In this document: positions 41,874 to 46,354 of the stretch, piece by piece
Layout: every line of letters begins with the position of its first letter
Numbering within the stretch: the first letter of the stretch is position 1
DNA from: Thermoplasmatales archaeon E-plasma
Lineage (GTDB): Archaea > Thermoplasmatota > Thermoplasmata > Thermoplasmatales > Thermoplasmataceae
Length of the DNA stretch: 64,000 nt
Assembly (NCBI GenBank): GCA_000496135.1
Contig: KI542675.1
Span: 434,001 to 498,000, forward strand
Reading direction: 5' to 3'
Translations under genes and position numbers: made by a program
Notes under the pieces: model-generated
What the model was told of the DNA's origin: nothing
Seen by the model: only the letters and a program-made list of their open reading frames with translations
The model's database searches: none

Positions 41874-42560
41874 ATGACAGATGATTTACAGGTGCAAAGA
41901 CAGAAGGAGATGATGAAATCTCTTACGCAGACTCAAATGCTGTATTTTGGAATCTTTATATTCAGTATGGTTGTCATATACCTTGCTCCTCTGAGGGAAG
42001 CCATAGGTTCTGCACTTGGCACTGTGCTTGATCCAAGCATCGGCTTTAACTTCGATTTTCCAGTTATCACACTTGTGCTGGCAGGTATTATTATTGGTGT
42101 GGTTACAGCAGTCCCAAGATATATCTTCACTGACTGGCTTAAGATGGGAAAAGCACAGGCAAGAACAAGAGCATTTTCAGAGGCACTGAGAAAAGCATAT
42201 CGTGAAAACGATCAGGATAAAGTGAAAAAGCTGCAGAAGCTCAGAACAGAAATGACAATGGAACAACAGGTTGTCCAGATGAACAACACTAAGCCACTGA
42301 TGTTTCTATCATTCTTTACAATTCTAATTTTTGTTTGGCTTTTCGTATTTGTTTACGCAATGAATTATGCATACATTTCCACTCCATGGAATCCAACTGT
42401 ACCATTGCTTGGTTCTTTCCTTGGTCCAATGCCGTATTGGGTTTTCTTATATTTCGTTTCAAACCTGGTAATTGGTTATTTCATAACGATGCTGATTAAA
42501 TTTATCGATTTCACATACAAGGCTAGAGAAATAGAGACAAAGGAATTGCAAGGCTTTTAA
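41874..42560 (+). CDS. DUF106 membrane insertase-like protein (EMC3/YidC-like)
   Basis: The 228-residue membrane protein has three main hydrophobic segments: about residues 22-43, 60-80 and 140-165, with a further helix near 190-210. A positively charged coiled-coil region (ARTRAFSEALRKAYRENDQ) lies between the second and third, as in archaeal DUF106 proteins. These are homologues of Oxa1/YidC and eukaryotic EMC3/TMCO1 and help to insert membrane proteins. The position right after secY-adkA supports the role. It shares one base with cmk. Confidence 0.88.
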   Translation: MTDDLQVQRQKEMMKSLTQTQMLYFGIFIFSMVVIYLAPLREAIGSALGTVLDPSIGFNFDFPVITLVLAGIIIGVVTAVPRYIFTDWLKMGKAQARTRAFSEALRKAYRENDQDKVKKLQKLRTEMTMEQQVVQMNNTKPLMFLSFFTILIFVWLFVFVYAMNYAYISTPWNPTVPLLGSFLGPMPYWVFLYFVSNLVIGYFITMLIKFIDFTYKAREIETKELQGF

Positions 42561-43087
42561 TGAGAATTACAATTAGTGGAACCATCGGGAGCGGAAAATC
42601 TACCGTAGCAGAATTATTGGGGAACCTTACAGGATTTAAGGTATATTCCGGGGGATATTTCTTCCGGAAGGCCGCACAGGATCATGGAATGACAGTTGAG
42701 GAATTCAACCGGTTCCTGGAAAATGATCCTGAATATGATCAGCAGTTGAATGATCAGATTGAATCTTTTATCAGGGATAATGACAATATCATAGTGGAAT
42801 CAAGATTAACAGGCTGGCTGTCATACAGAGCCAACATCCCTGCATTCCGGGTATTTCTGGATGCAGATATTGATGAGAGGGTCAGAAGAGTTAAGAAACG
42901 GGATACTCCAAGTGAAACAAGGAAACTTCTCATTGAAAGGGAGGAATCCGAGATAAAGAGGTTCCGGGATTTCTTTAATATTGATTTTACCGATAAGAGA
43001 ATATATGATCTTGTTATGGATACGGATAACATAACTGCACAGGAGGCAGCAAGGAGAATTTATGACATGGTCATTTCCAATGGATGA
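42560..43087 (+). CDS. cmk: Cytidylate kinase
   Basis: The 175-residue archaeal CMP kinase phosphorylates CMP and dCMP. The P-loop is ITISGTIGSGKSTVAELL, the substrate region VYSGGYFFRKAAQDHGM, and the lid has RVRRVKKRDTPSETRKLL. Length and order of motifs match AAA-type archaeal Cmk. It begins on the last base of the DUF106 gene and ends 8 bp inside cbf5. The L14e and L34e genes often found nearby in other archaea are absent here. Confidence 0.93.
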   Translation: MRITISGTIGSGKSTVAELLGNLTGFKVYSGGYFFRKAAQDHGMTVEEFNRFLENDPEYDQQLNDQIESFIRDNDNIIVESRLTGWLSYRANIPAFRVFLDADIDERVRRVKKRDTPSETRKLLIEREESEIKRFRDFFNIDFTDKRIYDLVMDTDNITAQEAARRIYDMVISNG

Positions 43088-44762
43088 AGACGGTGGTTTT
43101 ATTGTTATTGATAAACCAAAAGGGCCCACAAGCCATCAGATAGATTACTGGGTAAGAGAAATTACGGGTATTGCAAAGGTTGGCCATGTGGGAACACTGG
43201 ATCCACAGGCAACGGGGGTTCTGGCGATGGCTCTGGGCAAGGCAACAAGACTCATTGACATAGCGCACGAACAGCCAAAGGAATATGTTGGCATTATGAA
43301 GTTGCATGGGGACGTTGAAAGAACAAGACTTGAAGAGGTTCTCAGGGAATTTACCGGTGAGGTTATTCAATTACCACCCATGCGTTCTGCAGTTGCCAGA
43401 AGATTGCGAACAAGAAAGATATATGAACTGGAACTCCTTGAAATTAAGGAGAGAGATGTTCTTTTCAGGGTAAAATGCGAATCTGGAACTTATATCAGAA
43501 CACTCTGCGTGGACATAGGTTATGTCCTGGGTACAGGCGCAAACATGACTGAGCTTCGCAGAACAAAAACAGGTGTTTTTTTCGAAGATCAGACGGTAAC
43601 GCTTCAGGATCTTTCCGATGCAGTCGAATTGTCCAGAACTGGAAAACCCAATCTGTTAAAGGCCATGTTCCATGACCCAACATTCTTATTCAAGGAGAAA
43701 GCCAAAATAGTTGTCAAGGACAGCACAATACACAATATATCAAAGGGTTCTGATCTCTATCCTGGTGGAATCCGGAAGATTATAGGGGAGCCAATGAAGG
43801 GTGACCGGGTTATGGTTTCTTCCGAATCAGGGAAATTTCTTGGCACGGGAATAATGCTCGCAAATTTCATGGATATCACAGATTTGAAGGTTGTTGATTT
43901 TGACAGGATAATGGTAGATCCGGTAGAGGGAAATGTAAATAAAATAGAGGAAAAGCCCAAAGTGAATTCAGCCGATAAATTACATATTCATACTTTTGAT
44001 AAAACTATCAATATTCCTAAAATCAGAGGAAATGAATCAGAAGTGAAACTCCGAACGGACAGACCTTCAGATTACAGAAAGAATATTGAAGCAGCACCAG
44101 GGAAGAAATCCTTTGTAAAAGGCAAGGAAAATTCTTTCAGAGATAAGGGTAAGGAGAGAAGGCCAGGATCAGAAGAAAAGGCCAAGAGATTTGGAAGAGA
44201 TAGAACTTCGGAATCATTCAAACCACAATTTAAAAGGAGAGAAGAGAGGCCTTTTGAAAAAAACAATTTCGTTTCCAAAGATAAGGGTAAAGGAGAACAA
44301 AAAAATTACAGGTTTAGCGGTGAAAGAAAAGAAAATTTCACTGGAAAGGAAAAAGAAAATGTAAGAACATTCCCATCTGAGCCATTTCCAAGAAGAACTC
44401 AGGAACAGGAAAAGGATCCGCGTTTTGACAGAAATAAAGGTTTTGATAAAAAGAAGAGCGGACAGAGAAATGACCGGCCACCATGGCAAAGAGACAGGGA
44501 AGGGGGAAGAGTAAAGCAGGAATCCTTCAATAAGGGTAACTATAACAGGGGTCAGGGCAGCAGGAACTTTGATCGGAGAGAAACCAATCAGGGATCAGGA
44601 AGTTCAAGATCAGGTTATGGCAACAGAGACCGCAGACCCTCTTATCGTTCAGGAGATGAGAAGGACAGGCAATATAGAGACAGAGCGAATAAGTCAGGAT
44701 CACCCGGTTCATACGGTTCAAAGGGACCAGGACGGAAGGGAAAGAAGAATGAGTCAAGATAA
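43080..44762 (+). CDS. cbf5: Cbf5/TruB pseudouridine synthase with disordered tail
   Basis: Residues 1-290 form the H/ACA pseudouridine synthase that acts with Nop10, Gar1, L7Ae and guide RNAs on rRNA and tRNA. It has GGFIVIDKPKGPTSHQ, the catalytic Asp in GHVGTLDPQATGVL, KEYVGIMKLHGD, and CESGTYIRTLCVDIG, then a PUA domain (IVVKDSTIHNISKGSDLY). Archaeal Cbf5 usually ends near 330-340 residues. Here a tail of about 250 residues follows, rich in Lys, Arg, Glu, Gly, Ser and Phe, with repeated FDR/FGR/RGG-like bits and no predicted fold. I chose the ATG at 43080 (MDEDGGF); ATG 43062 would add six residues. Confidence 0.93.
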   Translation: MDEDGGFIVIDKPKGPTSHQIDYWVREITGIAKVGHVGTLDPQATGVLAMALGKATRLIDIAHEQPKEYVGIMKLHGDVERTRLEEVLREFTGEVIQLPPMRSAVARRLRTRKIYELELLEIKERDVLFRVKCESGTYIRTLCVDIGYVLGTGANMTELRRTKTGVFFEDQTVTLQDLSDAVELSRTGKPNLLKAMFHDPTFLFKEKAKIVVKDSTIHNISKGSDLYPGGIRKIIGEPMKGDRVMVSSESGKFLGTGIMLANFMDITDLKVVDFDRIMVDPVEGNVNKIEEKPKVNSADKLHIHTFDKTINIPKIRGNESEVKLRTDRPSDYRKNIEAAPGKKSFVKGKENSFRDKGKERRPGSEEKAKRFGRDRTSESFKPQFKRREERPFEKNNFVSKDKGKGEQKNYRFSGERKENFTGKEKENVRTFPSEPFPRRTQEQEKDPRFDRNKGFDKKKSGQRNDRPPWQRDREGGRVKQESFNKGNYNRGQGSRNFDRRETNQGSGSSRSGYGNRDRRPSYRSGDEKDRQYRDRANKSGSPGSYGSKGPGRKGKKNESR

Positions 44763-45567
44763 GTATGAAACCAAATGGTTTGGCATTTCGGATAAGGACA
44801 AAAATATCAGATATTTTAAAAATATTGAAACAGAATATGTAGATATATTTCAAAAGCTCAGGAAGGGTATAATTCCTGAGACAGGCAACGCAGGAAACAA
44901 ACCTGACCTCAGGAAGGCAATGATTGAATTTGGCAAAGTCAGGTTGAAGGAAGAGCTTGGAGAGGATCGATTCGTGGTGAAGCTTGTTCAGGCTTTGAAC
45001 TCAATTGACGAGATCATTAATCTATACTATGAAAGAGCTTCAGGCTTTGCAATTTTCACAAAGGATTTTCATAATGTCGGAACAATGAATGAGTTATTTA
45101 ACGACATTGCTGAAGGTGATTCAAAGTTTAACCCTGTGGCAATGCATCTCATTGGAGACGAGGGCAAAAGGCTCATAGATACAAAGAAAGAATTAGAAAA
45201 ACTTCTTAACGATTCAATATCCCGCATTATGCCAAACACCACAAGACTCATAGGGCCAAACCTTGCCTCTGAGCTCCTGGCCAGAGCTGGAAGTCTTCAA
45301 AAACTTGCACTTTCATCTGCGTCAGCAATTCAACTTACAGGGGCTGAAAGAGCACTCTTCCAGCATCTTTCAAAGGGAACAGATCCACCAAAACATGGAG
45401 TTATATATAAGCACAGTCTGGTTGCGGGCGCACCGGATGGGAGAACAGGAAAAAGAGCAAGGCGGCTTGCCTGTAAGATATGCATTACTGCAAGGGCCGA
45501 TTTGCGTGGCACCAGCTTATCCGATGAGATCATTAACGGTTATATAGAAAATATTCAGAAACAGTGA
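44749..45567 (+). CDS. nop5: Nop5 (Nop56/58) box C/D RNP protein
   Basis: The 272-residue scaffold of archaeal box C/D RNPs guides 2'-O-methylation. A short N-terminal domain precedes the coiled-coil helices. The Nop domain has IGPNLASELLARAGSLQKLA, LTGAERALFQHLSKGTDPPK and HGVIYKHSLVAGAP, then a basic end (RTGKRARRLACKICITARAD). The ATG at 44749 lies 14 bp inside cbf5 in another frame; the longer open frame upstream is just the Cbf5 tail read out of phase. The usual partner gene for fibrillarin is not downstream. The N-terminal fibrillarin-binding domain looks shorter than usual. Confidence 0.93.
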   Translation: MSQDKYETKWFGISDKDKNIRYFKNIETEYVDIFQKLRKGIIPETGNAGNKPDLRKAMIEFGKVRLKEELGEDRFVVKLVQALNSIDEIINLYYERASGFAIFTKDFHNVGTMNELFNDIAEGDSKFNPVAMHLIGDEGKRLIDTKKELEKLLNDSISRIMPNTTRLIGPNLASELLARAGSLQKLALSSASAIQLTGAERALFQHLSKGTDPPKHGVIYKHSLVAGAPDGRTGKRARRLACKICITARADLRGTSLSDEIINGYIENIQKQ

Positions 45568-45772
45568 ATTTTATATATATTACACCAAATTAGATTTATA
45601 AAGGACAGTTTAAAATTCTAATTTATTAAGTGAAAATCTGCTAACATTAGAATTAAACCTTTAGATATTATGATAAAGACTAATCCGATCCTGCTTCAAA
45701 GTTGATATCTTGTAAGAAACCCATATTTGAAAAATAAAAATGAGTCGGGATGTAGCATTAATTACGTTAAAA

Positions 45773-46354
45773 TTAAACCTGTATGGAGATACTTCTTTCC
45801 AGCTTTATTTCTCTTATTAATTTCTGAAGCAGTTCTGATATGAACTTTATAGCCATTTCATCGGTGAGGTGTCCATTTTCATCAAACTTTTTAGATGCAA
45901 AATTGATGAATACTTCAGGCCTGTTTATAAGCCGTGCATCAAGTGCAGTTAAAACCTGTCTCAAATGATACTGTGCCCTGGATCCTCCAAGCATTCCCAT
46001 TGAAGCACTCATTATTACTCCATGTTTTCCTGCGAAAGGGTTTTGGTCAGCCGGTTTCGAAATTGAGTCTATGGCGTTCTTTAAAAACCCCGGGATCGAA
46101 TAGTTGTATTCAGGTGTCGCAATAATAAAACCATCAGAATATTTTATAGATTCCTTAAAATTGACTATACTGGAATTTTTATCATTCTCTGCATCCTCAT
46201 TGTATAAAGGAATACCTGTTATATCAACTATATCCAACATTGAATTCTCCGGCATTAGACGCTGCACCTCTTTTAAAAGCATCATATTGTATGAACCTTT
46301 CCTTAAACTTCCTCCAAATCCAACAATCTTAATTTCTTCTGTATTTTCAGGCAT
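45773..46354 (-). CDS. NAD(P)H-dependent FMN reductase
   Basis: The 193-residue flavodoxin-fold enzyme has the phosphate loop FGGSLRKGSYN and the isoalloxazine-binding ATPEYNYSIPGFLKNAID, as in chromate and azo reductases. It reduces quinones, metals or azo dyes with NAD(P)H via FMN. Length is typical (about 180-195). It may protect against redox stress in a metal-rich habitat; that is inferred. It faces nop5 tail to tail across 205 bp that contains AT-rich, terminator-like sequence. Confidence 0.85.
   Translation of the reverse strand: MPENTEEIKIVGFGGSLRKGSYNMMLLKEVQRLMPENSMLDIVDITGIPLYNEDAENDKNSSIVNFKESIKYSDGFIIATPEYNYSIPGFLKNAIDSISKPADQNPFAGKHGVIMSASMGMLGGSRAQYHLRQVLTALDARLINRPEVFINFASKKFDENGHLTDEMAIKFISELLQKLIREIKLERSISIQV

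Follow-up and report, generated by a model that had tools for sequence, protein, structure and literature searches.

A charged, predicted-disordered tail on an archaeal Cbf5 that evolves as protein and, in related genera, is encoded within the Nop5 gene

Does the Cbf5 gene in the window (the whole 64,000-nucleotide stretch of DNA that was analysed) encode a genuine C-terminal tail, and what might such a tail do? The gene continues well past its last recognizable domain and runs into the gene that follows it. The parts of the locus are as follows.

43062-44762, forward strand: Cbf5 open reading frame, 566 amino acids, with its stop codon at 44760-44762
43062-43925, forward strand: Cbf5 core, residues 1-288, with TruB_N, TruB_C_2, and PUA domains (NF003280, Pfam, Foldseek)
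43926-44759, forward strand: predicted-disordered, K/R-rich polyampholyte tail, 278 residues (289-566) (composition, pLDDT, dN/dS)
44749-45567, forward strand: Nop5/aNOP56-like gene, 272 amino acids, in the +1 frame (PF01798 Nop, 108.9 bits)

The core is that of an archaeal Cbf5. Residues 11 to 287 match the NCBIfam Cbf5 equivalog NF003280 with 374 bits (cut-off, 242), and TIGR00425 is matched with 296.5 bits (cut-off, 238), placing the protein in the archaeal Cbf5 family. Pfam identifies a PUA domain in the core (33.4 bits), and the catalytic Asp, D47 within GTLDP, is invariant in 78 aligned sequences. In an AlphaFold2 model built with 78 sequences, residues 1 to 290 have pLDDT values mostly >90, and the best Foldseek match of the model is Methanocaldococcus jannaschii Cbf5 (2apo; E value, 5.8e-34; rmsd, 1.9 Å). 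The catalytic and PUA domains of canonical archaeal Cbf5 (2apo; P. furiosus 2hvy/3hax) superpose on those of the window protein. However, the canonical proteins have a long N-terminal extension and a C-terminal YPxxWK motif, whereas window Cbf5 lacks both and has a disordered tail added. Most sister families of the order have a shortened version of the N-terminal extension found in other archaea, and the window's own family retains almost none of it. The Cbf5 start at ATG 43062 sits within the 3′ end of an upstream cytidylate-kinase-like gene (42560-43087); starting instead at a second in-frame ATG, 43080 (M7), would cut this overlap to 8 nt. Among H/ACA partners, Nop10 is encoded in the same genome (74 bits). 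The sole Gar1 candidate in the genome, L077 (G000:C2:312515-312640), scores 21 bits (cut-off, 29.3), so that either Gar1 is absent there or its sequence has diverged greatly. The Gar1-like and fibrillarin matches of this genome sit in short frames, of 85 and 224 amino acids, respectively.

Beyond residue 287 we found no Pfam or NCBIfam match. Since the NF003280 match ends at this residue, the tail starts at approximately position 43926. An earlier note on this DNA had placed a tail of about 250 residues at 43950-44762; the tail is real, but it begins 24 nt earlier and comprises 278 residues. It contains 39 K, 39 R, 29 G, 27 E, 25 S, 22 N, 17 D, 16 P, and 16 F residues, with an FCR of 0.44, a net charge per residue of +0.12, and a kappa of 0.07. 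Aromatic residues number 24 (8.6%), and Phe and Tyr are dispersed. The tail has low hydropathy and falls on the disordered side of the charge-hydropathy line, and from about residue 310 the AlphaFold2 model (78 sequences) has pLDDT values of ~38 to 48 and no secondary structure, in agreement with the disorder that had been proposed. The FDR (twice) and FGR (once) tripeptides that had been pointed out are also present. The description of the tail as RG-rich, with RGG-like pieces, did not hold: RGG does not occur in it, and its five RG and GR pairs do not exceed the number in a composition shuffle (mean, 8.2; P for at least five, 0.94). KKE and KKD are likewise absent from the tail sequence. Internal repeats were considered as the origin of the long tail and rejected, as only one 18-nt pair was found. 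A sequence search revealed no other protein with a similar tail in the source genome. Two Rfam matches in positions 42500-46000 were both subthreshold and were taken as chance. Two antisense frames lie over the tail (44072-44278 and 44214-44489, reverse strand; 68 and 91 amino acids, with TTG starts); they probably reflect chance in purine-rich coding DNA.

We compared the tail between species of the window's genus. It is 278, 277, and 279 residues long in three species, and all indels among these tails are of whole codons. Within the genus, dN/dS is 0.29 to 0.41 for the tail versus 0.02 to 0.04 for the Cbf5 core, at similar dS values of 0.78 to 1.06 (tail) and 0.82 to 0.86 (core); dS is near saturation in some of the pairs compared. 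In a fourth species, whose core is 85% identical, the tail is diverged and runs for at least 131 residues before the contig ends. The equal lengths, the in-frame indels, and the dN/dS values of the congeners exclude a frameshift and an assembly error. The earlier note had considered that a frameshift here might leave close relatives without a tail, or that translation might stop before it; two congeners carry an intact tail of matching length, and its coding-sequence evolution counters an early stop. Translation of the tail is supported by evolutionary criteria, and purifying selection on the window tail in the Cbf5 frame is weak but evident. Because this constraint is approximately tenfold weaker than that on the core, part of the length may be a loosely constrained spacer. 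The conserved islands of the tail are as follows.

44229-44240, forward strand: FKRR, residues 390-393, invariant in the three full-length congeners
44364-44396, forward strand: RTFPSEPFPRR, residues 435-445, invariant in the three full-length congeners
44460-44504, forward strand: GQRN-RP-WQR-REG, residues 467-481, in three congeners, with 3 positions varying
44523-44549, forward strand: SFN-GNY-R, residues 488-496 (congener alignment)
44697-44756, forward strand: the tail end, G-PGSYGSK....KG-KNES, residues 546-565 (congener alignment)

The DNA of the tail end is purine-rich (GGACGGAAGGGAAAGAAGA) and immediately precedes the Nop5 start. It may be the Nop5 ribosome-binding site, and conservation there is consequently not evidence for protein alone.

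To place the tail in a wider context, we surveyed Cbf5 across the class Thermoplasmata, with C-termini read from DNA in 61 relatives, 300 class genomes, and 77 family genomes. A basic tail is present on every intact Cbf5 examined from the window's family (f1, which we take to be Thermoplasmataceae, apparently including Thermoplasma). It is 50 to 106 residues long in most genera; the shortest has 19 residues (genus g13), and the longest are those of the window's genus (277 to 279). No tail was seen outside f1 among the Thermoplasmata sampled. The ends there are canonical or bare. The tail is a family-wide feature and not special to the window gene, which the earlier note had missed. The C-terminal YPxxWK motif is missing from all aligned f1 Cbf5 proteins; outside f1 it is nearly always kept in the class sample, being retained in sister families f2, f3, f4, and f6 and in most f5 members. 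Two f5 genomes, L086 (G040) and L090 (G053), have lost YPxxWK and gained no tail. Other Thermoplasmata families include some very long Cbf5 frames (up to 793 amino acids), which were rejected as tails; they are due to upstream read-in of high-GC frames, and their C-termini are canonical. In a low-completeness f1 member of genus g7, L096 (G009:C1:42000-44900), Cbf5 lies in three pieces in different frames, possibly because of an assembly error. Across f1, the tails remain net positive and low in hydrophobicity even though their coding DNA differs greatly between genera, and charge and composition are better conserved than sequence.

The gene that follows Cbf5 proved to be central to how the tail is encoded, an aspect that the earlier note had missed: in most genera the tail is an overlapping frame of Nop5, kept open and basic by selection. 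Nop5 had correctly been recognized as the neighbor of Cbf5. It follows Cbf5 immediately, and the 14 nt from its ATG (44749) onward are shared with the Cbf5 end. The window Nop5 is a short, divergent protein: its Nop domain match begins only at residue 139, and it scores 151 bits against the aNOP56 equivalog NF011121 (cut-off, 452); short Nop5 frames are general across f1. All across f1, and in sister family f4 too, Nop5 comes right after Cbf5; in f4 there is little or no overlap between them. The tail overlaps Nop5 in 10 of the 19 genera (at least 35 genomes) and partly in another two, with 30 to 40 residues of own tail before the overlap. In the 10 overlapping genera, Nop5 starts ~10 to 45 nt past the end of the core, and the frame of Cbf5 extends ~180 to 230 nt inside Nop5, at +1 and in the same relative frame throughout. 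In five genera, including the window's, the tail is on its own DNA and Nop5 starts near the tail end, within the last 8 to 14 nt of Cbf5 in the window's genus. A further genus has the 19-residue tail. Each genome inspected has a Nop5 start codon of its own. Own-DNA tails elsewhere in f1 have dN/dS values of 0.07 to 0.53.

We used four tests to determine whether the overlapping frame is under selection, with the non-overlapping genera (own-DNA tails) as the control for all four. First, we recoded Nop5 synonymously according to each genome's own codon usage. The Cbf5 frame is open for 176 to 230 nt into Nop5, versus a median of 14 to 50 nt in the recodings (P < 0.02 in nearly all overlapping genomes); the corresponding frame of the non-overlapping genera ends where chance predicts. 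Second, we counted stop codons. The Cbf5 frame of the overlap has 0 stops, versus 177.6 expected, and the third frame has 215, versus 142 expected; in the same Nop5 stretch of the non-overlapping genera, there are 115, versus 135.8 expected. The zero follows partly from how the class was defined, and its weight lies in the rarity of such long open frames in each of ten deeply separated genera. Third, we compared synonymous change between close species in the overlap with that in the rest of Nop5, a test that is independent of the class definition. Synonymous change is about threefold lower in the overlap (Mantel-Haenszel odds ratio, 0.315; Fisher P = 2.7e-13; 8 pairs from 6 genera). The odds ratio in the non-overlapping genera is 1.04 (P = 0.89), which excludes general constraint at gene starts as the cause. 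Fourth, we examined composition. The net charge of the overlapping tail is higher than the mean of stop-free recodings in 40 of 40 genomes and individually significant (P ≤ 0.05) in about half; as genomes within a genus are not independent, it is the agreement between genera that counts. Relative to unconditioned recodings, the genus-mean charge excess is +6.8 (control, −3.5) and the difference in hydrophobic residues is −4.0 (control, −0.6). Together, the open frame, the absence of stops, the slow synonymous sites, and the charge excess indicate that the tail is kept as protein and that positive charge is favored. Judged by sequence evolution, the Cbf5 frame inside Nop5 is under selection, and both frames are selected in the shared DNA; this applies to the window's relatives rather than to the window itself. 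A set of tail motifs, VVR..IPVQ..RKKK, was dropped as conserved in its own right in the overlapping tails, because the Nop5 sequence in the other frame dictates it.

Trees of the Cbf5 core together with Nop5 place the window's genus and its sister genus (presumably Cuniculiplasma), both with own-DNA tails, as basal in f1. In the careful tree, made from the better-aligned sequences, the overlapping genera form one clade with weak support (76/39). A quick tree with more rows nests a second own-DNA group among the overlapping genera, whereas the better-aligned quick tree agrees with the careful one: a single overlapping clade, with own-DNA tails basal. If the overlapping genera are one clade, the overlap would be a single later event. 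On any reading of these trees, the tail was retained while its encoding DNA changed completely.

Several known systems resemble parts of this arrangement. The KKE/D tail of eukaryotic Cbf5/dyskerin belongs to the same orthologous enzyme, follows the PUA domain, and is likewise disordered and charged (PMC11528048; PMC7991803). It has an FCR of >0.35 and a positive net charge, as does the window tail (FCR, 0.44), and the likeness to dyskerin in character rather than in sequence that the earlier note proposed is borne out in that both are strong polyampholytes following the PUA domain. However, the eukaryotic tail has KKE/KKD repeats and lysine blocks, with a kappa of 0.1 to 0.4, whereas the window tail has no such repeats, a kappa of 0.07 (0.07 to 0.09 in the genus), Arg about as frequent as Lys, abundant Phe and Tyr, and no sequence similarity to it. 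The archaeal tail also replaces the canonical C-terminal segment, in cells with no nucleus or nucleolus. The window tail is not a member of the eukaryotic KKE/D tail family. Nor is it a GAR (RGG) domain. Like the GAR domains of eukaryotic Gar1 and fibrillarin, it is a disordered Arg/Gly-containing segment on a snoRNP core protein; unlike them, it is on Cbf5, has no RGG, has RG pairs at no more than chance frequency, and has a high acidic content. The gene arrangement, in turn, resembles long same-strand overlaps of prokaryotic genes, in which one stretch of DNA encodes two conserved proteins, each in its own frame. The f1 overlap differs in being ~180 to 230 nt long, kept across 10 genera, and selected in both frames. 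Surveys of same-strand overlaps have left out those of >59 bp for fear of misannotation (PMC3887535). In the open-licence literature, we found no prior account of the Cbf5 tail or of the Cbf5/Nop5 overlap.

What, then, is the tail for? In known H/ACA particles, the PUA domain holds the lower stem of the guide RNA and the ACA box (PMC7991803), and the lysine-rich tails of yeast Cbf5, Nop56, and Nop58 have roles in rRNA modification and in nucleolar compaction and condensation (PMC11528048). We consider it probable that the f1 tail is a genuine translated, disordered extension of Cbf5 that acts as a basic RNA-affinity arm beside the PUA domain, with charge conserved over sequence. Flexible and located on the PUA side of the particle, such an arm would strengthen local binding of both guide RNA and nascent rRNA. 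In the window's genus, 278 residues with dispersed Phe and Tyr may also aid multivalent clustering of H/ACA particles on pre-rRNA. The tail would then parallel the eukaryotic Cbf5 tail functionally, having been reached independently. RNA binding by the tail and condensation with Nop5, both suggested in the earlier note, are plausible, but the DNA shared by Cbf5 and Nop5 is not evidence of shared function. Several observations count against an RNA-affinity arm: the window tail is near charge-balanced (+0.12 per residue), its charges are well mixed (a kappa of 0.07, lower than in eukaryotic Cbf5 tails), and it is far less constrained than the core; genus g13 manages with a tail of 19 residues; and the charge excess reaches individual significance in just about half of the overlapping genomes.

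We weighed other explanations against this one. Selection might have acted on translation coupling between Cbf5 and Nop5, disfavoring an early Cbf5 stop and leaving a peptide with no function. In favor of this, the two genes adjoin in f4 as well, and in the window's genus Nop5 starts within the last 8 to 14 nt of Cbf5. However, coupling predicts a stop near the Nop5 start, and the overlapping genera stop ~180 to 230 nt inside Nop5; nor does it predict the excess of positive charge or the keeping of own-DNA tails as protein. We regard this explanation as unlikely. The tail might instead have no RNA-specific role and serve to stabilize or complete a PUA domain that has lost the canonical C-terminal segment, since every tailed f1 member lacks the YPxxWK motif that other Thermoplasmata nearly always keep. 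That would leave unexplained why the model folds the PUA domain confidently to residue 290 with the tail unstructured, and why L086 and L090 do without both motif and tail; moreover, neither 278 residues nor selection on charge is needed to finish a fold, and we find this account improbable. It is very unlikely that the overlap marks a programmed +1 frameshift giving a Cbf5-Nop5 fusion, with the tail just the unshifted product. The fixed +1 relation of the frames over ~180 to 230 nt would suit a fusion, but all genomes inspected show a separate start codon for Nop5, the overlap in the window's genus is just 8 to 14 nt, and selection on tail charge is not predicted. Finally, although the low-complexity sequence and the unusual length of Cbf5 might suggest a frameshift, an assembly error, or noncoding read-through, the independent assemblies of two congeners, which agree in tail length, differ by in-frame indels alone, and give dN/dS values far below 1, make this almost certainly wrong.

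The RNA-affinity arm can be extended into a broader proposal, which we offer tentatively and as more doubtful than the arm itself. Thermoplasmataceae may have evolved, without any link to eukaryotes, a disordered basic Cbf5 tail that brings H/ACA particles to nascent rRNA and is able to cluster them. The selected trait would be the charge and not the sequence or the DNA; one lineage would encode it in the second frame of Nop5, and the window's genus would have elaborated it into a 278-residue condensation module containing aromatic residues.

These findings bear on how disordered extensions of snoRNP proteins are viewed. A 2024 paper described archaeal snoRNPs as lacking lysine-rich and GAR disordered domains, which it regarded as eukaryotic inventions tied to the nucleolus (PMC11528048). 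That claim needs qualification, since a charged, predicted-disordered Cbf5 tail, albeit of other composition, occurs throughout one archaeal family. The overlap is a rare case in which both frames of a same-strand cellular overlap (~180 to 230 nt) are selected, and it has a built-in control in related genera whose tail is on its own DNA. It is also an example of a disordered tail that keeps its charge even as the DNA encoding it differs. For this family, the presence of such a tail throughout makes its role in cells without a nucleus testable.
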